DNA from: Balneolaceae bacterium
GTDB lineage: Bacteria; Bacteroidota; Rhodothermia; Balneolales; Balneolaceae
Length of the DNA: 64,000 nucleotides
Assembly (NCBI GenBank): GCA_034521445.1
Contig: JAXHMM010000006.1
Span: 558,001 to 622,000 of the forward strand
Direction: 5' to 3'
Made by a program: the position numbers and the translations under genes. Shown piece after piece: positions 125-26,209 of the stretch (positions within the stretch are counted from its first letter, which is position 1; each line of letters begins with the position of its first letter). The notes below the pieces were generated by a model. It was not told the origin of the DNA. It did no database searches and saw only the letters and a list, made by a program, of their open reading frames with translations.

Positions 125-279
125 TGGAGTTGGTTCTCCACCAATTTTTCAAGGCTGCTGGTGAAAATGGATTTTTCAAAGAGTTCCATTTATAGCGAGA
201 GTACATTTTGCAACATTATCCTACCCCCCTCCCCAAGGTAATTGGAGGTTCTACCTGTGGGATCCTTACGCTGACTTTC

Positions 280-292
280 TAGAACCGTTCTA
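280..292. promoter_or_regulatory. Perfect 13-bp palindrome upstream of the hem operon
   Basis: TAGAAC-C-GTTCTA lies about 90 bp upstream of the hemH start, in the 259-bp gap shared with the divergent antitoxin-like gene. A 13-bp perfect dyad with one central base fits a dimeric repressor or activator site. No regulator can be assigned from sequence alone, and a short palindrome can also arise by chance. Confidence 0.3.
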
Positions 293-383
293 AATAGGCC
301 CGGGCCCCCTCCCTCTTCAAATTCCCTTCATATAGGCTGGGTTTTTTGCCCTTTGTTAAAAAGCCGATGTGTAAAACGGAAAT

Positions 384-3674: not shown

Positions 3675-3689
3675 TCGATTCACTTCACC

Positions 3690-4415
3690 ATGCGAAACGA
3701 CAGAAAGAATATACTGGTCACAACGCAGCTTGACGGGCAGCAGATCCAGTACGCCCGTGTGATGGGGCTTGAGCCCCTTATTGAACCCGCGCTGGAGTTT
3801 GAATTCCCCGAGTACTGGGACCGGGTGCTGCGTACCATCAACGATCATCCCAAGGCCGACTGGGTTTTCAGCAGCAGTAACGCCGTAAAAGCCCTTGAGC
3901 GGATGCGCCGCAGCGGGCTGCAGGTGCCGCCCAATACCACCGTGTATGCGGTGGGACGAAAGACGGCCGACGCCCTGGCTGACCTGGGCCTGGAAGCCAC
4001 GGTACCCCGGCGGCAGAAGGCCTCCGGTCTGGCCGAACGCATCGCCGAGGAGGGGGTCGACCGCGTGATCTGGTTCCGGGGCAACCGCGCCCGCCGCGAG
4101 CTGCCCGAGATCCTCGCAGAACGCGGCGTGGAGGTACTCGAGGTGGAGGTCTACAAGACCAAGGTGCAGCCGGTGAACCTCCCGGACCGCCACGTGGATG
4201 GCATCCTCTTCTACAGTCCCAGCGCTGTGGAGGGATTTTCCAAAGGAGAGGGCTTCAAGGGCGAGCTGCCGGAGCTCTTCGCTATTGGTCCCACCACCGC
4301 CCAGGCGCTGCGTGAGGCCGCGGACCGAGAACCGGTGGTCGCCGGGCGACCCGACACCCGCGTGCTGCTCAAAAAGGTCTCCGACACCCTCTTCGACCGC
4401 AAACCGGCCACGTGA
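3690..4415 (+). CDS. hemD: Uroporphyrinogen-III synthase
   Basis: Cyclises hydroxymethylbilane to uroporphyrinogen III. HemD is poorly conserved, but this 241-residue protein has the expected two-lobe layout: an N-terminal I-L-V-T strand, V-F-S-S-S-N-A-V-K (about 52-60), A-V-G-x-x-T-A (about 89-95), then in the second half F-Y-S-P-S-A-V-E-G and A-I-G-P-T-T-A-x-A-L. Position between hemC and hemE makes the call firm. A second HemD-like protein is encoded at 18767-19543. Confidence 0.9.
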   Translation: MRNDRKNILVTTQLDGQQIQYARVMGLEPLIEPALEFEFPEYWDRVLRTINDHPKADWVFSSSNAVKALERMRRSGLQVPPNTTVYAVGRKTADALADLGLEATVPRRQKASGLAERIAEEGVDRVIWFRGNRARRELPEILAERGVEVLEVEVYKTKVQPVNLPDRHVDGILFYSPSAVEGFSKGEGFKGELPELFAIGPTTAQALREAADREPVVAGRPDTRVLLKKVSDTLFDRKPAT

Positions 4416-4467
4416 CCTCATCCTTTACCAGGCCTGACACGGCCTGATCAACCCTGTATTGCCTACC

Positions 4468-5535
4468 ATGAGCCACGATTTTCCCCAACTAAAAAACGAC
4501 CTGCTGCTGCGCGCCCTGCGCGGAGAGCAGGTGGAACGTCCTCCGGTCTGGATGATGCGCCAGGCGGGACGCTACCTGCCGCAGTACATGAAACTGCGCG
4601 AGAAATATACCTTCTTCGAGCGGGTGGAGACCCCCGAGCTGGCCTGCGAAATCACCCTGCAGCCCATCGACGAGCTGGAGCCCGATGCGGCGATTATCTT
4701 TTCGGACATTCTCACGGTGCCCCAGGCGCTGGGTTTTGAAGTGGACCTGGTGAAGGGCAAGGGACCTGTTTTCGGCAATCCTATTGAGAGTACCGACCAT
4801 GCTTTTTCCATTCTGGCCGAGGAGGTGCCCCGCAAGCTCTCCCACGTGATGGAGGCCATCACGCTCACCCGGCATGAGCTCGGGGGACGCGTGCCCCTCA
4901 TCGGGTTTGCCGGGGCGCCTTGGACCCTCTTTTGCTATATGGTGCAGGGACAGGGATCCAAGAATTTTGCCAAAGCCAAGGCTTTCCTGCAGCAGCATCC
5001 CGACGCCTCCAGACACGTGCTGGGTGAACTCACCCGTGCCACCATCTCCTACCTTCAGGCGCAGGTAGAGGCGGGCGCGCAAGCGGTGCAGATCTTTGAT
5101 TCCTGGTCCGGCCTGCTTTCACCCGGCGATTTCAACCGATGGGCCATGCCGCACCTGATGGAGATATGCGAGGCGATTGACGACGTGCCGGTGATTCTCT
5201 TTGCCAAGGGGAGTTGGTACGCCCTGGAGCGCCTGTCCTTCAGGGGCGGGGCTGACGCGCTGGGTATCGACTGGACCGTAAGTCCCGAATACGCCCGCGA
5301 GGCCACCCGCGGGGAGGTCACCCTGCAGGGCAACTTTGACCCCACCCATCTCTACGCCCCGCCGGAAGAGATCCGCCGCCGCACCCGGCGGATGATCGAC
5401 CGATTCGGCGTGCAGGGCTACGTGGCCAACCTGGGACACGGCATCCTCCCCGATATTCCGGTGGATCACGCAAGGGCTTTCATAGAAGCTGTAAAGGCTT
5501 ATAAGTCTAATAAGTCTGAAAGTCATAAAGTCTGA
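4468..5535 (+). CDS. hemE: Uroporphyrinogen decarboxylase
   Basis: Decarboxylates the four acetate side chains of uroporphyrinogen III to give coproporphyrinogen III. The signature P-V-W-M-M-R-Q-A-G-R-Y-L-P lies near the N-terminus, and the G-F-x-G-A-P-W-T and G-N-L-G-H-G-I-type motifs are present. I chose the ATG at 4468 over the upstream TTG at 4459, because family members begin just before this point. The last dozen codons (K-A-Y-K-S-N-K-S-E-S-H-K-V) are encoded by the AAGTC repeat array that continues into hemF, so the C-terminal tail is probably a repeat-derived extension. Confidence 0.95.
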   Translation: MSHDFPQLKNDLLLRALRGEQVERPPVWMMRQAGRYLPQYMKLREKYTFFERVETPELACEITLQPIDELEPDAAIIFSDILTVPQALGFEVDLVKGKGPVFGNPIESTDHAFSILAEEVPRKLSHVMEAITLTRHELGGRVPLIGFAGAPWTLFCYMVQGQGSKNFAKAKAFLQQHPDASRHVLGELTRATISYLQAQVEAGAQAVQIFDSWSGLLSPGDFNRWAMPHLMEICEAIDDVPVILFAKGSWYALERLSFRGGADALGIDWTVSPEYAREATRGEVTLQGNFDPTHLYAPPEEIRRRTRRMIDRFGVQGYVANLGHGILPDIPVDHARAFIEAVKAYKSNKSESHKV

Positions 5536-5574
5536 AAGTCGTAAAGTCCGAAGTCTGATGGTTGAAAGTCTGAA
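5503..5574 (+). repeat. Degenerate 8-nt tandem repeat (AAGTCNNA) across the hemE/hemF junction
   Basis: AAGTC recurs about eight times with spacing near 8 bases (variants AAGTCTGA, AAGTCATA, AAGTCGTA, AAGTCCG). The array spans the last codons of hemE, the whole 22-bp gap and the first codons of hemF, including its ATG. The same repeat family fills the gap between two other co-directional genes at 12107-12170. No role is known to me. Confidence 0.85.
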
Positions 5575-6550
5575 GGTGTCCTTTTCCGAATACATCCGCT
5601 CGCTGCAGCGGCGCATCTGCGACGCGCTGGAGTCGGAGGACGGGGTGGGTCGTTTCCGCCACGACAACTGGGAGCGCGAGGGCGGGGGAGGGGGACATAC
5701 CCGCGTGATTGAGGGCGGGGAGGTCTTCGAGAAGGGGGGAGTTAACATTTCCACCGTCCACGGGGAGCTGCCGGAACCCATCCGCCGGCGCTTCGAGGTG
5801 GAGGAGGGCTGGTTCTGGGCCGGGGGACTCTCCCTCGTTCTTCACCCACGCAGCCCCATGGTGCCCACCGCGCACGCCAACGTCCGCTATTTCGAGCTTT
5901 ACGACGATTCGAATTTATCAGAGATGCGCGACTGCTGGTTCGGGGGCGGGGCCGACCTGACCCCTTTCTACCTCTGGGAGGAGGATGCCGTGCATTTCCA
6001 CCGCGCCTGGAAGGAGGCCTGCGCCCCCCATGGAGAGGAGATCTATCCCGCCTTCAAAAAGGAGTGCGACGACTACTTCTATAACGATCACCGCGGCGAG
6101 GCCCGGGGCGTGGGCGGAATCTTTTTCGATTACCTGCGCCCGGGCTCGCAGCCGGCTACCGGGTCCGGTTCCGAAGGCGAGACAGCGGGCGCCGGCGGGG
6201 TGGGACGCACCGCGAGGGACTGGTACGACTTCACCACGGACGTGGGCGACGCTTTTCTGGATTCCTACCTCCCCATTGTGCGCCGCCGCCGCGGGGAGCC
6301 CTGGGAGGAGCGCCACCGACGCTTCCAGGAGCTGAGGCGGGGACGCTACGTGGAGTTTAATTTAATCTACGATCGCGGTACTTTGTTTGGGCTCAAAACG
6401 GGGGGACGTACCGAATCCATCCTGATGAGCCTGCCGCCCCGGGTGCGCTGGGACTACGATTTTACCCCCGAGCCCGGCAGCCGTGAGGAGGAGACCGTGC
6501 GCCTGCTTTCCGGCCAGCCGGTGGACTGGATCGGCCGGGAGTCTGGCTGA
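5558..6550 (+). CDS. hemF: Oxygen-dependent coproporphyrinogen III oxidase
   Basis: Oxidative decarboxylation of coproporphyrinogen III to protoporphyrinogen IX using O2. Family motifs include the G-G-G-G-x-T-R-V loop (about 45-52), a H-x-N-V-R-Y segment, W-F-G-G-G-A-D-L-T-P and a C-terminal F-N-L-I-Y-D-R-G-T-L-F-G-L stretch. A glycine-rich linker near residue 200-220 is longer than in many homologues. The start codon sits inside the AAGTC repeat array, so the first seven or so residues are repeat-encoded; the conserved part begins at F-S-E-Y-I. Its presence, with no hemN/hemZ here, fits aerobic growth. Confidence 0.94.
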   Translation: MVESLKVSFSEYIRSLQRRICDALESEDGVGRFRHDNWEREGGGGGHTRVIEGGEVFEKGGVNISTVHGELPEPIRRRFEVEEGWFWAGGLSLVLHPRSPMVPTAHANVRYFELYDDSNLSEMRDCWFGGGADLTPFYLWEEDAVHFHRAWKEACAPHGEEIYPAFKKECDDYFYNDHRGEARGVGGIFFDYLRPGSQPATGSGSEGETAGAGGVGRTARDWYDFTTDVGDAFLDSYLPIVRRRRGEPWEERHRRFQELRRGRYVEFNLIYDRGTLFGLKTGGRTESILMSLPPRVRWDYDFTPEPGSREEETVRLLSGQPVDWIGRESG

Positions 6551-6588
6551 TTTCCGAATCCAACCGCACGAAAACCCAACATCCATCC

Positions 6589-7587
6589 ATGGCACAAGGC
6601 GAATTTCCCCACATCCGCAATCGCAGGCTGCGCGCCGGCGAGGCCATTCGTGAAATGGTGGCCGAACACCATCTGACGCCGGACGATTTCATCGCGCCTC
6701 TCTTCGTTATGGAGGGCGAGGACGCCGTGGAAGAGATCCCCTCCATGCCGGGCTACTTCCGATACACCCTGGACCGTCTGGCCGGCGAGGCGGAGGAGCT
6801 GCGCGAGGCGGGTATCCGGTCGGTTCTTCTTTTCGTGAAGGTGCCCGACTCCAAAAAGGACAACCAGGGCACGGAAGCACTGAACGACGAGGGACTCATG
6901 CAGCGAAGCGTGCGGTTTCTGAAGGAGCGCTTTCCCGAACTGCTTGTCATGACTGACGTGGCGCTGGATCCCTATTCCAGCTACGGGCATGACGGTATCG
7001 TGGAAGATGGAGAAATCCTCAACGACCCCTCTGTGGAACTACTCGCCCGCATGGCCCTCAGCCATGCTGAGGCGGGGGCCGACATGGTGGCGCCTTCGGA
7101 TATGATGGACGGACGTATTGCGGCCATGCGCGAGACCCTCGACGCGGCGGACCTGAAGCATACCGGCATCATGGCCTACAGTGCCAAGTACGCCTCCGCG
7201 TTTTACGGGCCCTTTCGCGACGCCCTCGATTCAGCCCCGGGCTTCGGGGACAAGAAGAGCTATCAGATGGACCCCCGCAACGTGCGGGAGGCCGTGCGCG
7301 AGGCGCGGATGGACGAACAGGAGGGGGCCGACATTGTGATGGTCAAGCCCGGCCTTCCCTACCTGGACGTGGTGCGGGCCGTTCGCGAGGCAGTCAGCGT
7401 GCCGGTCTCCGTCTATAATGTCTCCGGGGAATACGCTATGTTGAAGGCGGCAGCCGAGAAGGGCTGGATCGACGGGGAGATGGCCATGATGGAGTCGCTG
7501 ATCGCTTTCAAGAGGGCGGGGGCCGACCTGATTGCCACCTATTTCGCCAAAGAGGCATCCCAACTGCTGAACGCCAAATATCAGTAA
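6589..7587 (+). CDS. hemB: Delta-aminolevulinic acid dehydratase (porphobilinogen synthase)
   Basis: Condenses two 5-aminolevulinate molecules to porphobilinogen. The two Schiff-base lysines are clear: K200 in M-A-Y-S-A-K-Y and K253 in V-M-V-K-P-G. The metal loop reads [14 protein letters not shown], with Asp/Ala where zinc enzymes have three cysteines, so this is the Mg2+-type rather than the Zn2+-type enzyme. Length 332 is normal. The stop overlaps the hemL start (TAATG). Confidence 0.96.
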
Positions 7588-8876
7588 TGCGTAACAAGAG
7601 CAAAGAACTTTTTGAACGGGCGCAGGAGAGCATCCCCGGCGGCGTGAATTCGCCCGCCCGGGCCTTCAACGCTGTGGGCGGCCCCCCGGTCTTCATTGAA
7701 TCGGCCGAGGGCTCGGTGCTTGTGGACGTTGACGGCAACGAGTACATCGACTATGTGGGGTCCTGGGGACCCATGATCCTGGGTCACGCCTGGCCGCCCG
7801 TTGTGGAGGCGGTGAGGCAGGCCGCCGCCCGGTCCACCTCCTTCGGCGCTCCCACGGAGCTGGAAGTGCGCATGGCCGAGCAGGTAAGGGAGATGGTGCC
7901 GGGACTCGACCTCGTGCGTATGGTCAATTCAGGCACCGAGGCCTGCATGAGCGCCATCCGCGTGGCTCGCGGTCACACGGGACGCGACAAGATTATTAAG
8001 TTCGAGGGCAACTACCACGGCCACGGCGACGCCTTTCTGATCAAGGCGGGCAGCGGCGCTCTCACCCTGGGAGCGCCCAGCAGTCCCGGCGTCACGGAGG
8101 GCACCGCCCGTGACACCCTGGTGGCCGACTTCAACGACCTGAACAGTGTCAAGAAGCTCCTGGCCGGGCACGAGGGGGAGGTGGCCGGCATTATTGTGGA
8201 GCCGGTGGCCGGCAACATGGGCTGCGTGCCGCCCAGCCGCGGATTCCTGGAAGGCCTGCGCGAGCTTTGCAACGCCCACGACATCGTGCTCATCTTTGAC
8301 GAGGTGATGACCGGCTTCCGCGTGGCCATGGGAGGGGCCCAGGAGCGCTACGGCGTACGGGCCGACCTGCTTGCCTTTGGAAAGATCATTGGCGGAGGAC
8401 TGCCCGTCGGGGCATTCGGAGGCAGGAAGGAGATCATGGACGCCGTCTCACCCGTGGGACCGGTCTACCAGGCGGGCACCCTCTCGGGCAATCCGCTGGC
8501 GATGGCCGCAGGACTGACGCTGCTGACCGAACTGCACGAGCATCCCCGGCACTACGACGAGCTGGAGGAGAAGGGAGCCTACCTGCAGAGAGGACTCAAG
8601 GAGCTGTGCGGGGAGCGCGGGGTGGATGTGACCATCAATCGCGTGGGATCGATGATCAGTCCCTTCTTCACCGGACGTGAAGTGACGGGATTCGAATCGG
8701 CCAATACCACCGACCTCGATCTATTCCGCTCCTTCTTCCACGGCATGCTGAATCGGGGCGTCTACCTGCCGCCCTCCCCCTTCGAAAGCTGGTTTCTCGC
8801 CAACTCGCTCACCCGCGATATGATGGACCGCACCCTTGAGGCGGCCGCGGGGGCCCTCGACGAGGCGATGGCATGA
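7587..8876 (+). CDS. hemL: Glutamate-1-semialdehyde 2,1-aminomutase
   Basis: PLP enzyme that turns glutamate-1-semialdehyde into 5-aminolevulinate. Seen: the N-terminal P-G-G-V-N-S-P-x-R-A motif, the N-S-G-T-E-A cofactor loop, F-D-E-V-M-T-G-F-R (PLP-ring Asp) and the PLP lysine K266 in A-F-G-K-I-I-G-G-G. Length 429 is typical. It is translationally coupled to hemB and overlaps the next gene by 4 bp (ATGA). Confidence 0.96.
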
Positions 8877-9199
8877 ACCGGCTACTTGACAAGCTGATGA
8901 AGCGTTGGGAGGTGGAGAGCCTTTGGCAGGTGGGAGTGATCCTGGTGGTTTTCGCCCTGACGGGCATGACTACGCTTTACGTGAACGAGTGGCTTTTCGG
9001 GCTGCTGGGCATCTCGGACGAGGACCCCTTCTGGTTGCGCACCCTCTTCTGGCTGCTGCTTGTACTTCCCGCCTACCAGGTACTTTTTCTGGCCTACGGC
9101 TTCCTGCTGGGACAGTTTCGATTCGTATGGCGCTTCGAGAAGAAGAGTTTTCGTAAATTGACGAGCCTCTTCACGGGCCGCAGGCGGGACGAGCAATGA
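8873..9199 (+). CDS. Small DUF6787-like inner-membrane protein
   Basis: A 108-residue protein with two hydrophobic helices (about 19-45 and 57-83), a W-x-V-x-S-L-W-Q-V type N-terminal amphipathic stretch and a basic C-terminus. This layout and the G-Q-F-R-F-x-W-R-F-E-K-K segment resemble DUF6787 of Bacteroidota. Function is unknown. Its start overlaps the hemL stop, so it is the last gene of the hem operon. A link to heme synthesis is only contextual. Confidence 0.7.
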
Positions 9200-13915: not shown

Positions 13916-15400
13916 CTAGGCCCCTTGACTGTCCAGAAACGAGAGAACGCGGGCGGCCGTTTCAGCGGCCGTTTCCATACAGTCGGGAAGGGATACGCCG
14001 CCGACAAAATTGCCGCAGGCAAAGAGGCCCGGCCGGTCGCGCTCCATCTGTGTAAGGGCTTCGCGCAGCTCCCCGTAGGCGGCGGTGTACTGCGGGATGG
14101 CCGCCTCCCAGAATGTGTGGGAGACAAAAACGGGGTCGCCCGAAATACCAAGTATGGGAGCCAGGTCGGCCAGCAGCTGCCCGCGCAGCTTCCCGGTGGA
14201 CCGCGAGGCCAGTTCGGGCTGGCGGGCGCCGCCCGCAAAGGTGGTCAGCAGCACATGGCCATCGGGGGCGCGTCCCGGGAAAAGGGTGGAGGAGAAGAGG
14301 GTTCCGAGGGGAGAGAGGGACTCCCTTTCGGGGATGAGCAGGCCGAAACCGTCCAGGGGATGGTCTACCTGCTCGCGGCGGAAGCCGGTAGCCAGCACGC
14401 TTACGGGTGCCGCCGGCAGGCGAGGGAGGTCCGGCATTCCGGACATCTGTGCGATGACAGGCGGGGGACAGGCCAGCACCAGGGCCTGATGGGTGCGGGT
14501 CCGGTTTTCGCCTTCTCGGCGGAAGGATACCTCCCACCCGGGGCGGCGGCGTGCGGGCGCAGCTCCCCCGGGATGCTCCCGGCGTCCTCCCCCGGGTCCG
14601 CTACCGCGGGTGCGGCGAAGTGTCCGTACGTCCGCGCCGGTCAGCAGCTCCATGGCCGTTGCTTCGGCCAGTGCGTGCGGCAACTCCTGCATGCCTCCGG
14701 CGAAGGAGACCAGGCGGCGCCCGCCGCCCTTTGAGTCCCCAACTCCGCCGAACAGGGAGGCCAGTCCTCCGGCCAGCAGGGAGCCGTATTGCTGCTCCAT
14801 TTCCCAGAGGCGCCGGAAGCTGTGGCGCATGACCAGCTGTTCGGGGTCGCCCGCCCATATGCCGCCCACAAAGGGGTTGACGGCGTAGTCGACCACTTCG
14901 GGACCCAGCCGGCGCCGAAAGAAGGAGGCTACGCTCTCGTCGGGGTTTTCCCCGCGACGCGCGAAGGGCTCCGCCAGCAGGCGCAGCTTGGCGCCGGCGC
15001 TGAGCAGTCCGGTGGAGATCATTTCACCCGGGGAGGAGGGCAGGGGCTGCGGCCGTCCGTCCCGCAGGATGTAGCGACGCGAGGCGGTCTTTTCCGCCTC
15101 CTGAAGACGCTCCTCCAGTCCCAAGTCCCGCACCAGCTCCCCGGCCCGGCTGCCCCCACGCAGAAGGAGAGTGTTGGGCCCCTCGTCCACCTGCCAGCCC
15201 GCCGAGGCGCGCGTGCGGATGAGTCCCCCCACCCTCGGCTGTTTCTCGTATAGGGTGATCCTGGCGCCGCCTTCGGAGAGTATACGGGCCGCGGTTAGGC
15301 CTGAGATGCCGCCGCCCACCACGCCCACGGAGGGTCCGTCGCGGGGCACCGGCGGTTTCGGCGCATCGGTACCGGGTGAGGTTGTCGGTTCCAGATTCAT
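13916..15400 (-). CDS. hemG: Protoporphyrinogen oxidase (FAD, HemY type)
   Basis: Oxidises protoporphyrinogen IX to protoporphyrin IX with O2, at the membrane. The protein has the FAD-binding G-G-G-I-S-G-L-T-A-A near the N-terminus followed by Y-E-K-Q-P-R-V-G-G-L-I-R-T, the D-E-G-P-N-T-L-L motif, F-V-G-G-I-W-A-G-D-P and a C-terminal F-A-C-G-N-F-V-G-G-V-S-L-P-D-C. It supplies the one pathway enzyme missing from the operon at 384-8876. I prefer the start at 15400 (M-N-L-E-P), because the ATG at 15424 overlaps the preceding gene. A Pro/Thr-rich tail precedes the Rossmann fold either way. Confidence 0.92.
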   Translation of the reverse strand: MNLEPTTSPGTDAPKPPVPRDGPSVGVVGGGISGLTAARILSEGGARITLYEKQPRVGGLIRTRASAGWQVDEGPNTLLLRGGSRAGELVRDLGLEERLQEAEKTASRRYILRDGRPQPLPSSPGEMISTGLLSAGAKLRLLAEPFARRGENPDESVASFFRRRLGPEVVDYAVNPFVGGIWAGDPEQLVMRHSFRRLWEMEQQYGSLLAGGLASLFGGVGDSKGGGRRLVSFAGGMQELPHALAEATAMELLTGADVRTLRRTRGSGPGGGRREHPGGAAPARRRPGWEVSFRREGENRTRTHQALVLACPPPVIAQMSGMPDLPRLPAAPVSVLATGFRREQVDHPLDGFGLLIPERESLSPLGTLFSSTLFPGRAPDGHVLLTTFAGGARQPELASRSTGKLRGQLLADLAPILGISGDPVFVSHTFWEAAIPQYTAAYGELREALTQMERDRPGLFACGNFVGGVSLPDCMETAAETAARVLSFLDSQGA

Positions 15401-15407
15401 GGGTGGT

Positions 15408-16910
15408 TCAGTCGAAGGTTCCACGCCGCCGCGGGGAGAAGAGGCTCATAAGCTGGTCGAGCAGGCCGCGCTTGAGCATGGAGACCTTTTCGTTGCGCCC
15501 CAGCGAGAGGAAGCGAAGCAGGTTGCGAAGCTCCGCCATCAGTTCCGGGGGATCGGTAACCAGGGTGTCGCTCGCGATGATACGGTCCCAGTTCAGCGGT
15601 TGTCCGAAGCGCACGCCGGCGCGCTGCATGGTCTGGTGGTAGAGGTGGGCGATAAGTCCGTATCCAATGGTGGTGGGATGGATGCCGTCAAGGCTGAATA
15701 TACCGCCCCGGCGAACCTTGCCGGTCTTCTCATCCACGCGCAGGTAGTCGGTGCTCAGGTTGGGATGCACGGGGTCCTCCACCAGCTGCTGTGTGGCGGG
15801 GTTGCGCAGCATGGCCTTGCGAAATTCTTCGGGGTAGTCGAGCCTGGGAGGTCCGCCGAGGCGCCGGCGGGCGTAGGCGCTTACGTAGGCGTTGAGCGGG
15901 ACCACGACCCAGCCGTAGCGCGCCGCCGTGTCGCGGATAATCTTGTTATACTCGTCCACCACCTGGTCGAGCTCGATGGCCTGCTCTTTGCTGAGGAAGG
16001 GATGGCGGTCCGGGTCGAAGTCGCTGTCCCATATCCAGAAGCGCGTGTAGTAGTCAAAGTATCCCCCGGGCTTGCGGTCAGGGTTGTGGTTCACCCCGCG
16101 GGTCACCGGCGGGATGGTGACGTAGGGTATGGTCTGGGTGATCACCCGTTCCGCCCCGATCTGCGCCGCCTCCTCGGCCAACGCTTCGAACTCCCTCTTG
16201 AAATGCTCGGGGCGGTAGACGGTGTAGTTGCGCTCGGGGGTGAACTTCTCGAGGTCCTCCTCCTCAGAGTATTCAAAACGCAGGTCGGTGACCGCCCCGA
16301 TGATGTTGTTGTGTCCCATACAGACAATGAGATTCTCGATGCCTCCGTTGCGCTGCAGCCAGCGCGCATTGTCGAGCTGCGTGCTGCAGGCGAAGGTCTC
16401 GCCCAGGCTGGGATTCAGCACCAGACGGGCGGTCACGTACATGGCGTGATCAGGCAGAAAGCTGAAAATGGAGTAGGTCTCCGGCTGCTTCTCCGCCACC
16501 TTGCGGGCGCGCTCTTCGGTCATCATCCAGGCGTCGTTCATGGCGAAGCCCCAGACCGACTGGTTGTGGTAGGGCGCGGTCCGATTGCGGGCCAGCGATA
16601 TGCGGTTGCCTTCCCAGTGGTTTTTAATGCGGCGCAGGGTGGTGTAGAGGTGCTTGAGGGCGGGAAGGTATTCGGTCCATGTCAGCGATGAACCGAACTC
16701 GTCGGAAAGTCCCCTGGCCAGCACTTCCAGGTTTAGGGGTATACCGCCCTGGGCGGTAAAGAGGGGCTGGTCGAAGCGCGACGGGGGCTCGAAGCACTCG
16801 GCCAGGAAGGCGGGGAAACTCAGGTCGGTGCGGTAGACGCCCCCGTTGTTGAAGCCCTGGCTGACGCTGTCGCCTACCACGACCAGCTTATGTTCTGCAG
16901 ATGTTGCCAC
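15408..16910 (-). CDS. SGNH/GDSL-like hydrolase
   Basis: About 500 residues. Block I reads V-V-V-G-D-S-V-S-Q-G-F (nucleophile Ser), a block-III-like M-G-H-N-N-I follows in the middle, and block V is D-G-I-H-P-T-T-I-G-Y (Asp/His). These are the SGNH-hydrolase catalytic blocks, with a large insert between them. The substrate is unknown, likely an ester. The frame is open to an ATG at 17015, but the proline-rich stretch before G-D-S looks non-coding. A GTG at 16910 gives M-A-T-S-A-E-H-K-L-V-V-V-G-D-S, the expected short lead, so I use it. No signal peptide is visible. Confidence 0.78.
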   Translation of the reverse strand: MATSAEHKLVVVGDSVSQGFNNGGVYRTDLSFPAFLAECFEPPSRFDQPLFTAQGGIPLNLEVLARGLSDEFGSSLTWTEYLPALKHLYTTLRRIKNHWEGNRISLARNRTAPYHNQSVWGFAMNDAWMMTEERARKVAEKQPETYSIFSFLPDHAMYVTARLVLNPSLGETFACSTQLDNARWLQRNGGIENLIVCMGHNNIIGAVTDLRFEYSEEEDLEKFTPERNYTVYRPEHFKREFEALAEEAAQIGAERVITQTIPYVTIPPVTRGVNHNPDRKPGGYFDYYTRFWIWDSDFDPDRHPFLSKEQAIELDQVVDEYNKIIRDTAARYGWVVVPLNAYVSAYARRRLGGPPRLDYPEEFRKAMLRNPATQQLVEDPVHPNLSTDYLRVDEKTGKVRRGGIFSLDGIHPTTIGYGLIAHLYHQTMQRAGVRFGQPLNWDRIIASDTLVTDPPELMAELRNLLRFLSLGRNEKVSMLKRGLLDQLMSLFSPRRRGTFD

Positions 16911-18766: not shown

Positions 18767-19543
18767 ATGCCGCTTGTACTGCTGACCGCTGCCGAAGAAG
18801 ACGTTGAGGAGACGCTGGAAAAACTATCCGCGTCTGACCTGAATGCCCTGCACTTGCCCCTGGAGCGCTACGTGCCGGTGGAGGCGGAGGAGAAGACCGA
18901 AGAGCTGCTGGGCCGCCTGGACGAATTTGAGCAGATCGCCTACGGCAGCCTTCGCAACGCCCGTTTTTTCCTGGAGGCGGTGCGCGAACGGGGGCTCCTC
19001 GAAGAGGTTCGAGGCCGTGTAAATCTGGCGGTGAACCCGCGCACGGCTTCCTGGCTGGAGGAGCGGGATGTGCCGGCTATCTGCGCCGACCTTAACGCCT
19101 TGGGGCAGTCCGGCGACGGCGGGTCCCGGGGCGGCCGGGCCATCGACCTGATGGAGTTCCTGCTGCGACTGCGGCGCACCGGACCCACCCTCTATCCCTG
19201 TGGGTTGGAGACCCCCGAAGAGCTGCCTGGCCTGTTGCGGGAGCTCGATATGCCGGTGGAGGAGCTGGTGCTGTTCAGAAGCAAGGGACCTGGTGAGGAC
19301 CGGCTGGAGGCTTACCGGACCCGGCTTGCGGAACGCCCACCCGACGCAGTGGTCTTTCACTCGCGGCGTGCGGTGGTACGCACCCTGGCCGCCTTCCCGG
19401 AGCTTGACCTGGATGCGGCCACCTTGGTGACGGCCGATACCGGCATCACGCAGAAGCTGCGCGAGGAGGGCGCGGAGGCCGATCTGGAGGCCGGCGGCAG
19501 CTGGGAGAGTATTGTGGAGAAGCTGGCCGGGGCTTGGGGATAA
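18767..19543 (+). CDS. Second uroporphyrinogen-III synthase-like (HEM4) protein
   Basis: 258 residues with the two-lobe HemD pattern: V-L-L-T-A near the start, I-A-Y-G-S-L-R-N-A-R-F-F (position of the S-x-N-A-V motif), T-L-Y-P-C-G-L-E-T in the hinge, V-V-F-H-S-R-R-A-V-V-R and L-V-T-A-D-T-G-I-T-Q-K-L. It lies 15 kb from the real hemD, in no hem cluster, and several conserved HemD positions differ. It could be an alternative synthase, a siroheme/cobalamin-branch paralogue or a non-catalytic member of the fold. Confidence 0.6.
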   Translation: MPLVLLTAAEEDVEETLEKLSASDLNALHLPLERYVPVEAEEKTEELLGRLDEFEQIAYGSLRNARFFLEAVRERGLLEEVRGRVNLAVNPRTASWLEERDVPAICADLNALGQSGDGGSRGGRAIDLMEFLLRLRRTGPTLYPCGLETPEELPGLLRELDMPVEELVLFRSKGPGEDRLEAYRTRLAERPPDAVVFHSRRAVVRTLAAFPELDLDAATLVTADTGITQKLREEGAEADLEAGGSWESIVEKLAGAWG

Positions 19544-20018: not shown

Positions 20019-20864
20019 TTAGTCGGTTTCAGGCCCCACCAGCACAAGCAGGGGACGTTGACCGAACAGTCCCATTTCCCGGGTGCGCGCGGCGCTCAGC
20101 AGGGCGTCAAAAAAGCTTTTTTTGTAGCGCGTCATGATCAGCAGGGAGGTGTCATGTTCGTTCATGAAGGTGTTGATGCCTTCGTGGAAATCTCCATTGT
20201 AGGCCAGGTGCATGGGCAGTTTGGGCTTGCCCGTGGCCTCGGCGGCCAGCGAGCGGAATCCGCGGTAGTCCATTTCGTTACGAAAGGACTTCTCTTCTGC
20301 GATGTGCACCACGCCCAGTTTCGCCTTGAAAAGCTTGGAAAAATCGGCCGTCCACCGCAGAGCCTTGAGGTCGCCCTCTTTGTAGTCGGTGGCAAAGTGG
20401 ATGTTTTGGAAATCATTGAATTGGCTCTCCGGAGGAATGACCATCACCGGAACCGGCGACTGGCTGATGATACCGGAGGCCATGCTGCCCATCAATGCGC
20501 GGTGGGCGTTACCTGCACCCTGCGTGCCCATGACGAGGAGGTCGGGCTTGCGCTCGCGCACCATGTCCAGCAGGTTTACCACCGGGTTGCCGGAGAGGAG
20601 GGAGGTGGTGATTTCCAGATCCCGGTACGTTTCATCCACCATTAACCGGTCCTTTAGCTTTTGGAATCGCTCCCGGGCCTGAGCCGTGACTTCCTGCTTT
20701 TTATCTCTGGAGGAGGGCGCCAGGTCGATCGGTTCTTCGGATACGTGTACTATGGTGAGGGTGGCGCCCGTCCGGCGCGCGATCTCGGCGGCATATGGCA
20801 GGGCTTTTTCGGACGCCTGGGAAAAGTCTGTGGGGAAGTAGATGTTGCGAATCGGTTCTTTCAT
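20019..20864 (-). CDS. Universal stress protein, two tandem UspA domains
   Basis: 281 residues built of two Usp folds (about 1-145 and 150-281). The first opens with I-Y-F-P-T-D-F-S-Q-A-S-E-K-A and ends with the ATP-binding-type sequence M-G-T-Q-G-A-G, then a serine-containing G-S-x-x-S-G-I-x-x-Q-S-P-V-P-V-M-V-I-P. The second lobe is degenerate at this motif. It is cytoplasmic and probably stress-responsive. Co-directional with the BCAM0308 gene; its promoter would lie in the 200-bp gap before the histidine kinase. Confidence 0.9.
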   Translation of the reverse strand: MKEPIRNIYFPTDFSQASEKALPYAAEIARRTGATLTIVHVSEEPIDLAPSSRDKKQEVTAQARERFQKLKDRLMVDETYRDLEITTSLLSGNPVVNLLDMVRERKPDLLVMGTQGAGNAHRALMGSMASGIISQSPVPVMVIPPESQFNDFQNIHFATDYKEGDLKALRWTADFSKLFKAKLGVVHIAEEKSFRNEMDYRGFRSLAAEATGKPKLPMHLAYNGDFHEGINTFMNEHDTSLLIMTRYKKSFFDALLSAARTREMGLFGQRPLLVLVGPETD

Positions 20865-21111
20865 GGTTGTGTCCGTGTGAATTAAAATGATAAAATTGAG
20901 AAGGGTTACCTCACCTTATGAACCGAAAATATACAAGTTGGAAGTACGACCTGGAAGAGTATAACTCGCACGGCCCGTGTGGGGGGATGGATTACGCGGA
21001 TGTGGGGATCAGGGCAGAGTGAACGGTGAGAGGGGGATTCGAAGGTGAGATTTAACAGGTTTTTTATAAATTGAGTTCTTGCAATTCAGTGGCACCTCAA
21101 GAGAAACTGCC

Positions 21112-22533
21112 GTGGCGGAGAATAACGCACTTACCGACATTGATTTCCGGGCCCTGCTCGATCGGGCTCCTCGCCTGTTTATGCTCGTTGATTTCGATGG
21201 AGTCATCCGCTATTGGAACTGGGGCGGGCAGGAGCTCCTCGGTTACGAGCCCGACGAAATGGTGGGTCGGCAAGTCTGGAGCCTTTATCCTGATCGCGGG
21301 GAAGATGTCTTTCGGGAGGACCTGGAGCTGATCCGTTCCGGGCAAACCCTTTCGGCCATCTTTAGGTCCAGGCACAAGAATGGGGATCACCACTGGGTGG
21401 ATGTGAAACGCAGACTCTTCACAGACGGCAGCGACCGGGAGTGGATTCTGGCCTCCGCCAGCGACGTCAGCCGCTATGTGCACACCGAGCGGGAGCTGGA
21501 GCGAAGCGAACAGCGCATGAAGGCTATCATAGACCATACGGTGGAGGGTATCATCACCATAGACACGCGCGGCGCCATCCAGAGTTTCAACAGCTCCGCC
21601 GAGGAGATTTTCGGTTACGAGGAGAGAGAGGTGCTGGGCAGGAACGTGAAGGTGCTCATGCCGCAGCCCTACCGGGGCGAGCACGACGGATATATGGAGA
21701 ACTATCTTCGTACCGGCGAAAAGAGAATCATCGGCATCGGACGGGAGGTGCGGGGCCGCCGCAAGGACGGCAGCGTCTTTCCCATGGAGCTCTCGGTGAG
21801 CGAAATCCGTTTCGAGGACGAGCGCCTCTTTACCGGACTTGTCAAGGATATCAGCCAGCGCCGCCAGCTGGAGAATGAGATCCTGCAGGTGAGTGAGCAT
21901 GAGCGCCAGCGCATCGGACGGGATCTGCACGACGGACTGGGACAGATGCTGACCGGCATCAAGCTCATCTCACAGAACCTGGCCCGCAGGCTGAAAGCCG
22001 ACGGGCTGCCTGCCGCCGACGAGGTGCAGGAGATTTCCGATATGATACAGGAGGCCGATCAGCAGGCCAAGGCACTGGCACACGGACTGGTGGCCATCGA
22101 GCTGGGAGCGGAGGGCTTCCGCGAGGCACTGGCGCGCATGTGCGACCGGGGGGAAAGCATGTTCGACATAACCTGTCATATGGAACTGGAGGAAGAGCTG
22201 GAGGTGACTGATCGGCTGATGGTCACCCACATGTACCGCATTGTGCAGGAGGCCATGCACAATGCCGTTAAGCACGGGCAGGCGAACACCCTATGGGTTC
22301 GTCTGTACCGCTCGGACGGGTTTCTCAGCCTGGAAATCGAAGACAACGGTATGGGATTTGCCCGAGCCGCGGAGAAGGGAGATGAGAAGGGTATCGGTGT
22401 GGACACCATGGACCACCGGGCGCATATCATGGGGGGACGTCTTGAAATAGGTGAGAGTCCCGGGGGAAGAACGCAGGTGCGTGTGACGGTCCCGCTGGCC
22501 GAATTACGACTTACATCCAACGAAGAAGCATAA
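21112..22533 (+). CDS. PAS-PAS sensor histidine kinase with a FixL-like second PAS
   Basis: Soluble two-component kinase of the HisKA_3 (NarX/DesK) type with two PAS domains (about 10-120 and 137-250), a dimerisation helix with phosphorylated His (R-D-L-H-D-G-L-G-Q, about H273) and a C-terminal HATPase (N-A-x-K-H-G, D-N-G-M-G-F). The second PAS reads very like FixL: M-P-Q-P-Y-R-G-E-H-D-G-Y-M and I-I-G-I-G-R. The His and the Arg 20 residues later match FixL's proximal heme ligand and its oxygen-sensing Arg, so heme-based gas sensing is possible (inference). A GTG at 21112 is preferred; the frame is open from a TTG at 21079. The cognate regulator follows 6 bp later. Confidence 0.9.
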   Translation: MAENNALTDIDFRALLDRAPRLFMLVDFDGVIRYWNWGGQELLGYEPDEMVGRQVWSLYPDRGEDVFREDLELIRSGQTLSAIFRSRHKNGDHHWVDVKRRLFTDGSDREWILASASDVSRYVHTERELERSEQRMKAIIDHTVEGIITIDTRGAIQSFNSSAEEIFGYEEREVLGRNVKVLMPQPYRGEHDGYMENYLRTGEKRIIGIGREVRGRRKDGSVFPMELSVSEIRFEDERLFTGLVKDISQRRQLENEILQVSEHERQRIGRDLHDGLGQMLTGIKLISQNLARRLKADGLPAADEVQEISDMIQEADQQAKALAHGLVAIELGAEGFREALARMCDRGESMFDITCHMELEEELEVTDRLMVTHMYRIVQEAMHNAVKHGQANTLWVRLYRSDGFLSLEIEDNGMGFARAAEKGDEKGIGVDTMDHRAHIMGGRLEIGESPGGRTQVRVTVPLAELRLTSNEEA

Positions 22534-22539
22534 AAAACT

Positions 22540-23220
22540 ATGAGCAAAAGCAACTCCTTCAAGAAAGCGATCGCCATCATAGACGACCATCCCATGATGC
22601 GCAAGGGACTGGCAGCCACCCTGGACAGCGAACCGGGATTCGAGGTGGTGGCCCAGTACGAGAAGGGTGAGGAGGCCCTGCAGCATTTCGAGGAGTTGGA
22701 TCCCGACCTGATGATCGTAGATATTTCCCTGCCGGGTATGAACGGGTTGGAGCTGGTCAAACATCTCATCGCCCGCGACGAGGATGCGCGCATTCTGGTG
22801 GTTTCCCGCCACGACGAGAATATCTACGCCGAGCGGGTGATACGCGCAGGTGCCAAGGGCTATGTGATGAAGCTGGAGGCCGGTGACGTGCTGGTTAAAG
22901 CCTGCCGCAAAATTCTCAACGGAGGCATGTACATTAGCGAGGAGGTTAGCGAAAAGCTTCTCATGGGTATGGCCAGGGGACAGAAAGACCTCTCCAAGTC
23001 ACCCATCGACATGTTGAGCGACCGTGAGCTTGAGGTCTTCGAACTGACGGGCAACGGTAACAGCACCCGTGAGATCGCCGAGCAGCTCCACCTGTCAGTG
23101 AAGACGGTGGAGTCGTACCGCGCCCGCATCAAGACCAAGCTCAACCTTGAGAATGCCACCGAGCTGATGGTGCACGCCATCAAATGGGTGGAGAACGAAA
23201 GTCACCTCTCCGGGGATTAA
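22540..23220 (+). CDS. NarL/FixJ-family response regulator
   Basis: 226 residues: receiver domain (acidic pair D15-D16, phosphoacceptor D61 in L-M-I-V-D-I-S-L-P-G, Lys in Y-V-M-K) and a C-terminal LuxR-type HTH (S-D-R-E-L-E-V-F-E-L-T-G-N-G-N-S-T-R-E-I). All phosphorylation residues are intact. It is co-transcribed with the PAS kinase just upstream, and its target genes cannot be read from the window. Confidence 0.95.
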   Translation: MSKSNSFKKAIAIIDDHPMMRKGLAATLDSEPGFEVVAQYEKGEEALQHFEELDPDLMIVDISLPGMNGLELVKHLIARDEDARILVVSRHDENIYAERVIRAGAKGYVMKLEAGDVLVKACRKILNGGMYISEEVSEKLLMGMARGQKDLSKSPIDMLSDRELEVFELTGNGNSTREIAEQLHLSVKTVESYRARIKTKLNLENATELMVHAIKWVENESHLSGD

Positions 23221-23231
23221 GACAGAAGAAG

Positions 23232-24332
23232 ATGGGCGCATCACTTACACTTGGACGGGTAAAGGGCATTAAAATTCGTGTCCACTGGACCTTCTATCTC
23301 CTGTTGGCCTGGATCGTTTTCCTGGAGGTCAGCAGGGGTAGCAGCCTGGAATCCATGCTGTGGAGCGTGGCCTTTATTCTGGTCCTATTTGGTTGCGTGG
23401 TGCTGCATGAACTGGGACACTCCTTGACCGCCATGCGGTTCGGAATATCCACACGGCAGATTACCCTTCTGCCCATAGGTGGGGTGGCCAGCCTGGAAAA
23501 GATGCCTGAGGATCCCTGGGAGGAGCTTCTGGTTGCTCTGGCTGGTCCCGCCGTAAACGTGATCATTGCCCTCGTGCTGTGGATGCTGTTGCCCGTAGGT
23601 GCGTTCTTTTCGCAAAACCCCGAGGCCCTTCAGGAGGCCCTGTCGGTGATCAACGCGGGGAATTTTCTCTACCTTCTCCTGTCGGCCAATCTTCTGCTGG
23701 TGGCGTTCAATATGATTCCCGCTTTTCCGATGGACGGAGGACGCGTGCTGCGGGCACTGCTGGCCATGCGCATGGATCGTGTCCGTGCCACACGCGCAGC
23801 CGCACTGCTGGGACAAGGCCTGGCTGTACTCTTTTTTCTGGTGGGCATCGTCTATAATCCCATTTTGGCATTGGTCGGTGTATTCATCTATTTCGGCGCC
23901 CGCTCGGAAAGTGCCATGGAAGAGCAGATGGTGGTGCTCAGGGGCCGTACCGTTCGCGAAGCGATGATGACCGACGTTACGCTGGTTGATCCGCAGGCCA
24001 CCATCGGGGAGGTGATTGATCTGATCCTCGACGGCACAGAAAGGGATTTCGTGGTTTCCAGCGGCAGGGAGGTGGAGGGCGTGCTTTATGAAACGGATCT
24101 CATACGTGCCTGGCGAAGCCGGGGACAGGACGTGCCCGTGCACGAAGTGATGGTACGCGGGGTAAAGGCTGTTTCGGCCGGCGATCCCCTAAAAGAGGTG
24201 ATCAGCCGACTGCAGGAAGGGCGTTCCTTTCTGCCCGTAGTGGAGGATGGCCGGCCCGTGGGGGCCATCGACACAAACAACCTGAGCGAATTCATCGTCT
24301 TCCGTGCCACAACCGGCATGCGGTCCGCTTGA
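23232..24332 (+). CDS. Site-2 protease (M50) with C-terminal CBS pair
   Basis: 366-residue intramembrane zinc protease. V-L-H-E-L-G-H-S (about 57-64) lies in a transmembrane helix, and the third ligand is in the N-M-I-P-A-F-P-M-D-G-G-R helix. About six hydrophobic helices are followed by two CBS motifs (from T-V-R-E-A-M-M-T-D-V to the end), which usually sense adenine nucleotides. This is the SpoIVFB-like group III architecture. The ATG at 23232 is used because the upstream part overlaps the response regulator and lacks homology. Substrate unknown. Confidence 0.9.
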   Translation: MGASLTLGRVKGIKIRVHWTFYLLLAWIVFLEVSRGSSLESMLWSVAFILVLFGCVVLHELGHSLTAMRFGISTRQITLLPIGGVASLEKMPEDPWEELLVALAGPAVNVIIALVLWMLLPVGAFFSQNPEALQEALSVINAGNFLYLLLSANLLLVAFNMIPAFPMDGGRVLRALLAMRMDRVRATRAAALLGQGLAVLFFLVGIVYNPILALVGVFIYFGARSESAMEEQMVVLRGRTVREAMMTDVTLVDPQATIGEVIDLILDGTERDFVVSSGREVEGVLYETDLIRAWRSRGQDVPVHEVMVRGVKAVSAGDPLKEVISRLQEGRSFLPVVEDGRPVGAIDTNNLSEFIVFRATTGMRSA

Positions 24333-24346
24333 CACATGGGATCCTG

Positions 24347-24760
24347 CTAGTTGTCTTCCACCAGTCCCAGCTCCTTGGCATTGATGCTGTAACGGGTGTG
24401 AGGCACGGCTTCCAGCCGACCGCGGGATATGGGCAAGCCTGTAGCCTTGCAAATGCCGAAGGTGCCGTTTTCGATGCGTTCAAGGGCGTCATCGATCTGC
24501 TGGATGTATTTCATTTCACGTTCGATGAGCTGGTAATTCATATTCGCATTTTCTACCTCCGTGCCCATATCTCCAGCGTGGTGTGCAATGGAGGAGAGAT
24601 CGGCGTCGTCGGCGTCGGCTCCCTCAGAGATACTCTCTCTCAAGGTCTCTATCTCCTCCCCGGCTTTTTTGCGCCTGGAGATTAGCAGGGATCGAAAATG
24701 ATCCAGGTCGTCGGGTGTCATCCATGCGTCGCCTTGTTTGTTCTGGGTCGTTGTGTTCAT
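24347..24760 (-). CDS. TraR/DksA-family protein with a degenerate zinc finger
   Basis: 137 residues: a long N-terminal coiled-coil-like helix (about 16-97) and the family's C-terminal F-G-I-C-K-A-T-G-L-P-I-S-x-x-R-L-E-A-V-P segment. Only one of the four zinc cysteines remains (C104), so the finger cannot bind zinc in the usual way. A similar cysteine-poor form is common in Bacteroidota. It may still bind in the RNA polymerase secondary channel. A paralogue with four cysteines is at 37181-37510. Confidence 0.85.
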   Translation of the reverse strand: MNTTTQNKQGDAWMTPDDLDHFRSLLISRRKKAGEEIETLRESISEGADADDADLSSIAHHAGDMGTEVENANMNYQLIEREMKYIQQIDDALERIENGTFGICKATGLPISRGRLEAVPHTRYSINAKELGLVEDN

Positions 24761-24866
24761 GGCAAGGGAGATTTTAAAGGTGTGTTATGATGTTCTATGC
24801 CCTATATATGAGTTTACGGCTGTTGCAGCCATGGGATATTGGCAAGGCGAGGTGTAGGGCCGGCAC

Positions 24867-26012
24867 TTACATGTCTTCGGCCACGCCTTCGCCTTTCTCA
24901 CCGCGACTCATCACCCAGGTGTAGCGCACCAGGCTGCCGAGACCGAAGAAAAGAAGAAGGAGGTTTATCAGTCCCCCTATCCAGGGCAGATTCACCAGAA
25001 GCCCCAGCAGCAGCATACCCAGAGCGAGTCCCCAGTAGTAGACTGATGTGGAGGTCTCCTCGCGGAAATAGAGAATGAAGGCCGCGCCCAGAATCATGGC
25101 TACCAGCAGGTAGCCGGCCAGCAGGGACAGCCCGTAAAGTACCCAGAGGATGATGGAGAGCGGTATGGTAAAGACCAACACCAGCAGCACCAGCGCCATC
25201 AGGGGAATAAGCAGGAAGCTGGCCAGTCCGATGCCCGTGTTTTTCCAAAATCGCTCGGTGGCAAAGCGCTGCAGGTCCACCGCCGTGCGCTCGAAAATAC
25301 GTATGAGTACCAGACCGCTGATCAGCAGCGACAGGAAGATTCCTCCAGTCCACAGGATGGTGCTCCAGACTGAGGGTTGGTCGACGGTAATGGTCAGATC
25401 GGGCGGCAGGTTGCCCAGGTTTTCCCGGTGTACCGGTTCGCTGCTCCAGATGCTGGTGCTGTATTCGGCCGCGTAATTCTCCCCGAAGGTGACGCCGCTG
25501 CCGTAGATTTCCACGAAGTTCAGGACGGTGCCGTCGAGGTTTATTTCCTCGCCGGCCACGCGAAGGGCACCCCCTACCGTGCCGCTTTCAAAGATTACGG
25601 AGGATCCCGCCAGGAATGCGTTGCCGCCGATCCAGGCGTCGCCGGTGATACGCACCGTTCTTCCCGCAGCGAAGAGGTCGCCCTCAATGCGCCCGTCCAC
25701 CACAACCGTCTCGCCCAGGGCCAGAACCATATCGCCGACGGAGCCGTGGACTGACACGAGTTGGGCGGCCAACAGCGCATCGTCGGAGACGCTGCCGTTG
25801 AGCGTGAGATAGCGCGATGCGGAAAAGAGGTCGTTGTTCAGATGTCCCATCACTTCAACCAGCTGACCCGCCGCAATAATGTTGCCTTCCAGCGAGTCGC
25901 TTTCGTTGATGCGAATGGTGGTTCCCGTCTTGTAGGTCGATTGCGCCTGCATCGGAAATGCCAACAGCGCACCCATGGACAGTATGCCCAGAATGATCAG
26001 CAGTCGTTTCAT
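24867..26012 (-). CDS. Bactofilin-like (polymer-forming) membrane protein
   Basis: 381 residues. A signal sequence (cleavage after Q-A) leads into about 170 residues of short beta repeats such as G-N-I-I-A-A-G-Q-L-V-E-V-M-G and D-L-F-A-A-G-R-T-V-R-I-T-G-D-A-W-I-G-G-N, the right-handed helix pattern of bactofilin/polymer-forming domains. The C-terminal half has four or five transmembrane helices. The layout suggests an envelope scaffold anchored in the inner membrane; the function is unknown. Confidence 0.75.
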   Translation of the reverse strand: MKRLLIILGILSMGALLAFPMQAQSTYKTGTTIRINESDSLEGNIIAAGQLVEVMGHLNNDLFSASRYLTLNGSVSDDALLAAQLVSVHGSVGDMVLALGETVVVDGRIEGDLFAAGRTVRITGDAWIGGNAFLAGSSVIFESGTVGGALRVAGEEINLDGTVLNFVEIYGSGVTFGENYAAEYSTSIWSSEPVHRENLGNLPPDLTITVDQPSVWSTILWTGGIFLSLLISGLVLIRIFERTAVDLQRFATERFWKNTGIGLASFLLIPLMALVLLVLVFTIPLSIILWVLYGLSLLAGYLLVAMILGAAFILYFREETSTSVYYWGLALGMLLLGLLVNLPWIGGLINLLLLFFGLGSLVRYTWVMSRGEKGEGVAEDM

Positions 26013-26209
26013 GATACCCTCCCGTGATTGTGCGGATGCGTCTGATCCGGTCAGCCAGACAGCCGGGAATCGGGCACGTCCCGCGGATTAACTTGTAACG
26101 TTAAGTATAAGCGTCCGCGGGGGGATGTTGGCTCCGCAAATCTCCCGAATATGTGTGGCGTAGTCATGGGCAATGGTGTAAGGGAGGGCCCTACAGGTGG
26201 GAGACGCGT

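Follow-up and report, generated by a model that had tools for sequence, protein, structure and literature searches.

The sensor kinase and the response regulator encoded side by side at 21079-23220 of the window (the whole stretch of 64,000 nucleotides that was analysed) probably form an oxygen-responsive two-component system, in which a heme-carrying FixL-type PAS domain (PAS2) would be linked via a HisKA_3 module and the regulator to a palindromic box located before low-oxygen and stress genes. This reading is built on the domains, the conserved residues, the pairing of kinase and regulator, the class-wide spread of the pair, and a box beside the pair which recurs before two genes, all of which were computed. 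The system is more likely to control stress genes than the nearby genes of heme synthesis.

We infer heme binding, oxygen as the signal, the sign of regulation and the binding of the regulator to the box, which together make up the following circuit. Heme b, bound through His202 in PAS2, would sense O2 with the aid of Arg222, and loss of O2 would switch on the autophosphorylation of His284 in the HisKA_3 core, by analogy with FixL, where deoxy-heme turns the kinase on; the sign of regulation proposed here rests on the same analogy. The phosphate would then move from His284 to Asp61 of the GacA/NarL-like regulator, which in its phosphorylated form would bind TGTAGGG-N5-CCCTACA upstream of genes for survival under low oxygen and stress, raising the expression of stress and respiratory genes. 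The predicted targets in the window would be a DksA-like gene and a membrane-protein gene, and those elsewhere perhaps a heme-copper oxidase operon in the same genome and Hsp20, DUF892 and other genes in relatives. The features of the pair are as follows.

21079-22533, + strand: sensor histidine kinase, PAS-PAS-HisKA_3-HATPase_c (open reading frame, Pfam, orthologues)
21157-21441, + strand: first PAS domain, residues 27-121 (Pfam PAS_4 / PAS_3)
21508-21852, + strand: second PAS domain (PAS2), FixL-type, residues 144-258 (Pfam at about 146-260, PDB matches, AlphaFold model)
21682-21684, + strand: codon CAC of His202, predicted proximal heme ligand in helix Fα (FixL alignment)
21742-21744, + strand: codon CGG of Arg222, predicted O2-responsive Arg of strand Gβ (FixL alignment)
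21901-22089, + strand: HisKA_3 phospho-acceptor region, residues 275-337 (Pfam)
22225-22500, + strand: HATPase_c, residues 383-474 (Pfam)
22540-23220, + strand: response regulator with Response_reg receiver and GerE helix-turn-helix, Asp61 (Pfam)

Counted from its TTG start, the kinase has 484 amino acids (473 from the GTG codon at 21112), and the residues numbered H191 and R211 from that GTG in the first-pass annotation correspond to His202 and Arg222. The annotation had described a FixL-like PAS domain on a HisKA_3 kinase of the NarX type with a NarL-type regulator, and the Pfam domain order bears out the coupling to HisKA_3 and a LuxR/NarL-type regulator. The DLHD.LGQ box and HATPase_c are both present, with His284 as phospho-acceptor within DLHDGLGQ, and the Pfam matches of the kinase contain neither GAF nor HisKA, the latter being replaced by HisKA_3. 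The cut-offs of the whole-protein FixL and NarX models are not reached; the kinase obtains 166.7 bits with the FixL model NCBIfam NF041777 (equivalog cut-off 850) and 71.5 bits with the full-length NarX model (cut-off 578). The regulator gene starts 6 bases past the kinase stop and lies downstream of the kinase in all 31 relative loci. Its top NCBIfam model is the UvrY/SirA/GacA family (E 2.2e-44), although it stays below the cut-off of NF007018 (GacA/UvrY; 151.7 vs 280 bits), and the FixJ model matches as well (E 2.2e-24). FixJ too is a LuxR-type regulator, so the regulator departs from FixLJ less than the kinase does; the contrast with FixLJ drawn in the annotation therefore holds for the kinase (HisKA_3, no HisKA), but is weaker on the regulator side.

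A view on the distribution of the kinase shows matches in 30 of 58 genomes (the own genome plus 57 relatives) at E<=1e-30, of which 27 reach 2.4e-80 or better, and in a sample of the whole phylum 55 of 395 genomes match at E<=1e-50, all within one class and spread over several of its families. The 31 relative loci represent the best kinase matches (E 2.4e-80 or better) from 26 genomes; the family counts exclude L070, which has 26% identity, and L038, whose contig is apparently that of L050. The surroundings of the pair in the window contain the following features.

20019-20864, - strand: tandem universal stress protein (USP), divergent from the kinase (Pfam)
23184-24332, + strand: M50 (site-2) protease with two CBS domains, directly downstream of the regulator (Pfam)
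24347-24760, - strand: DksA-like C4 zinc-finger protein, predicted regulon member (Pfam; NCBIfam below cut-offs; box)
24853-24871, strand not applicable: candidate operator, 2 mismatches, score 11.0, G+C-rich spacer, 93 nt upstream of the DksA-like gene
24867-26012, - strand: membrane protein (judged by eye), predicted regulon member (box upstream)
26177-26195, strand not applicable: candidate operator, 1 mismatch, score 18.0, G+C-rich spacer, about 165 nt upstream of 24867-26012

The true start of the M50 protease is probably further in, because its reading frame overlaps the regulator, and the membrane protein at 24867-26012 has no Pfam or NCBIfam match. Recurrent neighbours of the pair were counted over 32 loci, with each cluster named from one representative: YceI was found in 12 loci, Hsp20 in 10, USP in 9, a PEP synthase-like protein in 6, an SDR in 5, DUF892 in 4, N-ATPase genes in 4 and an Acg/Rv3131-like oxidoreductase (91.6 of 199 bits) in 4, and a flavin reductase also occurs among the neighbours in relatives. 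One further cluster, c2 (for example L069:10531-11805), consists of proteins of about 424 amino acids (mostly 400-440), which are encoded near the pair in 16 of the 32 loci and often behind a box; its tested member gave no Pfam or NCBIfam match. None of the typed neighbours is a nitrogen-fixation gene. Note that four loci (L039, L040, L042 and L066) share an unusual energy-stress cluster, in which the pair is followed by genes for Hsp20, an SDR, a PEP synthase-like protein and an ATP synthase of the N-ATPase type (AtpR).

The candidate operator emerged from a dyad count in the upstream regions, in which TGTAGG-N7-CCTACA occurred in 6 loci, compared to at most 2 in 20 shuffles; here, as in the controls for box scores and window sites, the shuffles keep base content alone. 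The box TGTAGGG-N5-CCCTACA with up to 2 mismatches is found beside the pair in 18 of the 31 relative loci, where it precedes the kinase, Hsp20, DUF892, YceI or an unclassified neighbour, and it resembles the GacA box, given as TGTAAG-N6-CTTACA in a passage of PMC4950607. It stands before Hsp20 in L039, L040 and L055, and an autoregulation of the kinase is possible in L039, L041 and L043. Autoregulation is not evident in the window, because no box is recognisable in the intergenic region before its kinase and its USP. A second palindrome, GAAGC-N8-GCTTC, recurs in 8 relative loci of the same upstream set.

The two sites of the window with up to two mismatches compare to a mean of 0.25 in 20 shuffles, and the 4 sites at 3 mismatches are not significant against 1.95 expected. 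Both sites have G+C-rich spacers instead of the usual A+T-rich ones and are missed by the tighter pattern. Over the own genome, the loose pattern shows no enrichment (6 sites vs 9 for the reversed control), and the tighter pattern has 3 sites vs 0 for the control. One of these three is located near a DUF4382 gene, a second close to a Sulf_transp gene, and the third in the stretch from a DsbD_2 gene to the heme-copper oxidase operon.

Independent footprints came from the homologues of the two predicted targets, which were scanned with a box matrix trained on 14 sites near kinases. Among 30 fetched loci of DksA matches, 9 contain a site of score 10 or more at 80-170 nt upstream, with the threshold of 10 fixed after the scores were known; these are 9 of the 18 loci from kinase-positive genomes, compared to none of the 12 from kinase-negative ones (p 0.004), and at score 12 the counts are 6/18 vs 0/12 (p 0.06). 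A post hoc split assigns the box to 9 of 12 stress-type DksA genes and to none of 18 housekeeping ones. Close homologues of the membrane protein occur in 6 of the 58 genomes, all of them kinase-positive, and five of these six have a box (score 14.4-19.4) at 133-195 nt upstream; a weak second match in genome G007 (L225) has none. Control upstream regions in other fetched loci contain no site at score 8 (0/69), and the count over all upstream regions (53/343 at score 10) is not independent, because it comes from loci where the box was found. The oxidase operon, encoding subunits II and I, was dropped as a conserved target, as the box was present in 2 of 12 close homologues and absent from the three most similar ones, so that just one of eleven close homologues shares the box of the own genome; it is a possible target of the regulator in the own genome. 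The oxidase co-occurs with the kinase in 11 of 27 vs 1 of 31 genomes, a difference confounded by kinship, and genes for NuoA, cytochrome c and oxidase subunits are found behind boxes in some genomes.

The alternative that survives best, although it is still rather unlikely, is that the box belongs to another regulator, such as a second GacA-like one, which lies near the pair or co-occurs with it. At the genome level, the box with up to one mismatch is found in 21 of 27 kinase-positive vs 5 of 31 kinase-negative genomes (p 3.5e-6; reversed control 14/27 vs 11/31), and the tighter pattern with up to two mismatches in 20/27 vs 9/31 (p 0.0014; reversed control 8/27 vs 9/31), where the kinase-positive set consists of the own genome and those at E 2.4e-80 or better, and three genomes with weaker matches (G014, G033 and G051) are counted as kinase-negative. 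With the sites within 20 kb of the kinase removed, these values fall to 9/27 vs 5/31 (p 0.22) and, for the tighter pattern, to 9/27 vs 9/31, and the distant sites of the tighter pattern amount to 28 in kinase-positive vs 9 in kinase-negative genomes, with 17 of the 28 in G012 and G026. This co-occurrence was therefore given up as independent evidence, since its source is the boxes flanking the pair, from which the motif had been derived. Outside these positions, box and kinase are not linked at the genome level, as would be expected of the operator of another regulator, and boxes also precede the kinase in G006 and G024, two genomes whose kinase has lost the heme His. However, the box directly adjoins the pair in 18 of the 31 relative loci, and the boxes before DksA-like genes are restricted to kinase-positive genomes (9/18 vs 0/12), both of which argue for the regulator of the pair.

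The sensory side of the proposed oxygen-responsive system is contained in PAS2, whose central part, YEEREVLGRNVKVLMPQPYRGEHDGYMENYLRTGEKRIIGIGREVRGRRKDGSVF (translation of 21616-21780, + strand, inside the kinase frame 21079-22533), includes both residues of interest. His202 and Arg222 are separated by exactly 20 residues, and the match to the heme-ligating His and the Gβ Arg of FixL stated in the first-pass annotation is confirmed by the alignments with the Rhizobium meliloti and the Bradyrhizobium japonicum protein; the corresponding pairs are numbered 194/214 and 200/220. In FixL, the aligned His is the heme ligand and the Gβ Arg the O2-linked residue. The top PDB match of the kinase is the FixL heme domain 1d06 (E 6.4e-37), and the 67-residue stretch encoded at 21580-21780 matches FixL on its own (E 5e-25), so that, as judged from these values, chance is excluded as the source of the similarity. 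The same stretch retrieves 14 distinct PDB sequences at E<0.01, all of them from FixL, DosP or FG214, which represent heme PAS domains of four proteins (with mutants among the rows, and 10jx included), and the next row stands at E 0.047. A wide occurrence of the F-G pattern in proven non-heme PAS domains, which would have spoken against a heme site, was accordingly not found among the structures solved in the PDB.

An AlphaFold model of residues 133-272, calculated with 31 sequences (mean pLDDT 81.9), has FixL 8js5_F as its nearest fold (Z 18.7, 2.1 Å over 140 residues), and the first matches outside FixL are CPS_1291 and LOV domains with Z values of 15.3 or less. The F helix and the F-G loop, which would hold the heme, are poorly modelled (pLDDT 55-59, model residues 61-90). 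The identity of PAS2 to the aligned FixL structures is 39-49%. Asn208 occupies the position of Arg200 of SmFixL, a propionate partner; this is no argument against heme, because SmFixL R200 variants keep similar heme spectra, according to a passage of PMC10765370. In a survey, as far as its excerpted parts state, FixL and DosP share one PAS cluster, in which the Fα His is the main determinant of heme binding (PMC10468136). Taken as a sequence-based assignment, PAS2 is therefore supported as a FixL-type heme PAS domain, and heme binding is predicted.

The conservation of this site in relatives was followed in 30 of the 31 loci, leaving out L064, whose kinase is broken by a stop and aligned with its C-terminal part alone. 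The heme His is kept in 25 of the 30 copies from the order. Arg222 is present in 25/25 copies with His and in 2/5 without it (p 0.0025, uncorrected for phylogeny), and Tyr209 and Met194 each in 25/25 vs 1/5. The five orthologues lacking the His (L041, L043, L065, L066 and L069) have lost much of the F-G pattern and retained the regulator as partner. The heme site thus tends to vanish as a unit, as suggested by the loss of Arg222, Tyr209 and Met194 in most cases where the His is gone, and the pair can persist without FixL-type heme. Among the best 30 of 61 class-wide matches, both His and Arg are found in 30/30; the own genome and several previously covered genomes are among these loci, and the count is biased to the closest copies, because four genomes whose copy lost the His (G003, G006, G024 and G037) fall among the other 31 matches. 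The His-less orthologues represent natural versions for comparing heme-dependent and heme-free forms of one circuit.

Two other readings of PAS2 were weighed against oxygen sensing. It appears unlikely that the domain binds heme and senses another gas or a redox state (NO, CO or the redox state of the heme iron) instead of O2. Heme PAS domains do bind O2, CO and NO in vitro, as known from FixL structures, Arg222 would be compatible with NO or CO as well, in spite of its O2-linked role in FixL, and the YceI and flavin reductase neighbours in relatives would fit redox stress; yet the Gβ Arg accompanies the His in all 25 His-bearing orthologues and in the best 30 of the 61 class-wide matches, and the boxes that precede respiration genes (NuoA, cytochrome c, oxidase subunits) in some of the genomes also point to O2. 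Even less probable is a heme-free relative of FixL whose F-G pattern would be structural. This would be in line with the 5 of 30 orthologues without His and with the PAS cluster of the survey, where the excerpts give an Fα His in about 60% of the members and none in about 40% (PMC10468136), but the copy in the window has both residues, the solved PAS domains matching the segment at E<0.01 carry heme, and most of the five copies without His have also lost the Arg together with nearby F-G residues.

The first-pass annotation had further suggested a possible tie of the pair to the heme genes of the region, with the O2 need of HemF and HemG as the rationale. The operon hemH-hemA-hemC-hemD-hemE-hemF-hemB-hemL occupies 384-8876, 12 kb from the pair, a further HemD-like gene is found separately at 18767-19543, and the "HemG" at 13916-15424 belongs to the TIGR00562 type of protoporphyrinogen oxidases. 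The genome also encodes an O2-independent HemN (428 bits, cut-off 325; contig C5:622850-624180, L216 and L218), so that a requirement of heme synthesis for O2 does not necessarily follow. The profile match of this hemN is split over two frames, which suggests a frameshift or an assembly error, and the gene adjoins one that starts like the iron-sulphur repair protein RIC/ScdA, as judged by eye. The search for regulator motifs upstream of the hem operon proposed in the annotation was carried out with the matrix of the box as the putative operator of the regulator, and yielded no site in window positions 1-9000 (hem operon; score 8 or more), none in the 8 kb upstream of the window (L215; score 9 or more), and no box near the own hemN; control of the hem operon was dropped for lack of a candidate operator in the operon or these 8 kb. 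In 4 of the 31 relative loci, a divergent hemN precedes the kinase at a distance of two or three ORFs (one of the four was typed, at 549 bits with a cut-off of 325), which may be a weak residual link to heme; hemN is the only hem gene among the typed recurrent neighbour clusters. A system sensing O2 through heme to regulate the heme operon of this aerobe is therefore very improbable, even with that operon in the same window and hemN near the pair in some relatives, given the 12 kb distance and the lack of boxes in all three places, and the proposed tie to the heme genes was not retained.

For the members of the class as a whole, we tentatively propose a low-O2 survival programme, in which a rhizobial-type heme-PAS sensor on a NarX-type kinase, together with a GacA-like regulator that has an operator of its own, may govern a DosR-like gene set including a dedicated DksA paralogue; the circuit would have outlived the loss of the heme site in some lineages.

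The pair shares with FixL-FixJ the heme-PAS domain with Fα His and Gβ Arg and the LuxR-type regulator, and B. japonicum FixL (8js5) also contains tandem PAS domains. It differs from that system in having HisKA_3 instead of HisKA, a regulator scoring nearer to GacA/NarL than to FixJ, and a typed gene neighbourhood devoid of nitrogen-fixation genes. With NarX/NarQ, it has the HisKA_3 and HATPase_c output in common, whereas the tandem PAS domains replace the sensor half. The regulator has GacA/UvrY as its top NCBIfam model, and the candidate operator resembles the GacA box, but the regulator remains below the cut-off of the model and its partner is not a kinase of the BarA/GacS type. DosS is a kinase of the HisKA_3 type with a heme GAF sensor, in place of which the kinase described here has a FixL-type PAS domain and no GAF match. 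DosS/DosT-DosR and OsdK-OsdR otherwise resemble the pair in their HisKA_3-type kinases and LuxR-type regulators, and the genes of the USP, Hsp20, PPDK/PEP synthase-like and Acg/Rv3131-like kinds that surround the pair in relatives recall the DosR and OsdR regulons. As far as an excerpt of PMC5069765 goes, USPs and nitroreductases belong to the hypoxia regulons of both DevR and OsdR, joined by heat-shock proteins in the case of DevR and by pyruvate phosphate dikinase in that of OsdR, and the OsdR sites printed there are unlike the box described here. The NmpRSTU pathway of Myxococcus xanthus is likewise headed by a heme-dependent kinase, and its regulon includes a cbb3 oxidase and hemN, according to a passage of PMC11841059, but it uses a globin sensor and an NtrC-like regulator.

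FixL-type PAS domains themselves are known, and are described as common and predicted in many proteins in the excerpted parts of PMC10468136. Outside the class, five of 100 matched plasmid records were examined (L180-L184), with the output module judged by eye: four of these kinases, which are proteobacterial, have both His and Arg and an output looking like HisKA, and the fifth, from Burkholderia cenocepacia, has an HDDLGQ box and a degenerate F-G segment. One of the records (L181, Sphingopyxis plasmid pDB-2) places its FixL-type PAS kinase in an island that also encodes Hsp20, a truncated hemoglobin, a cytochrome c, an acetate kinase and a phosphate acetyltransferase. Searches of the open-licence PMC literature found no description of a FixL-type PAS domain joined to HisKA_3 and paired with a GacA-like regulator next to a box of its own, and the new aspect is this combination of FixL-type PAS, HisKA_3 and GacA-like regulator, conserved across several families. 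If the proposed circuit is correct, O2-linked control of dormancy and stress would have arisen more than once from different heme sensors, and the predicted operator and target genes make this claim testable.
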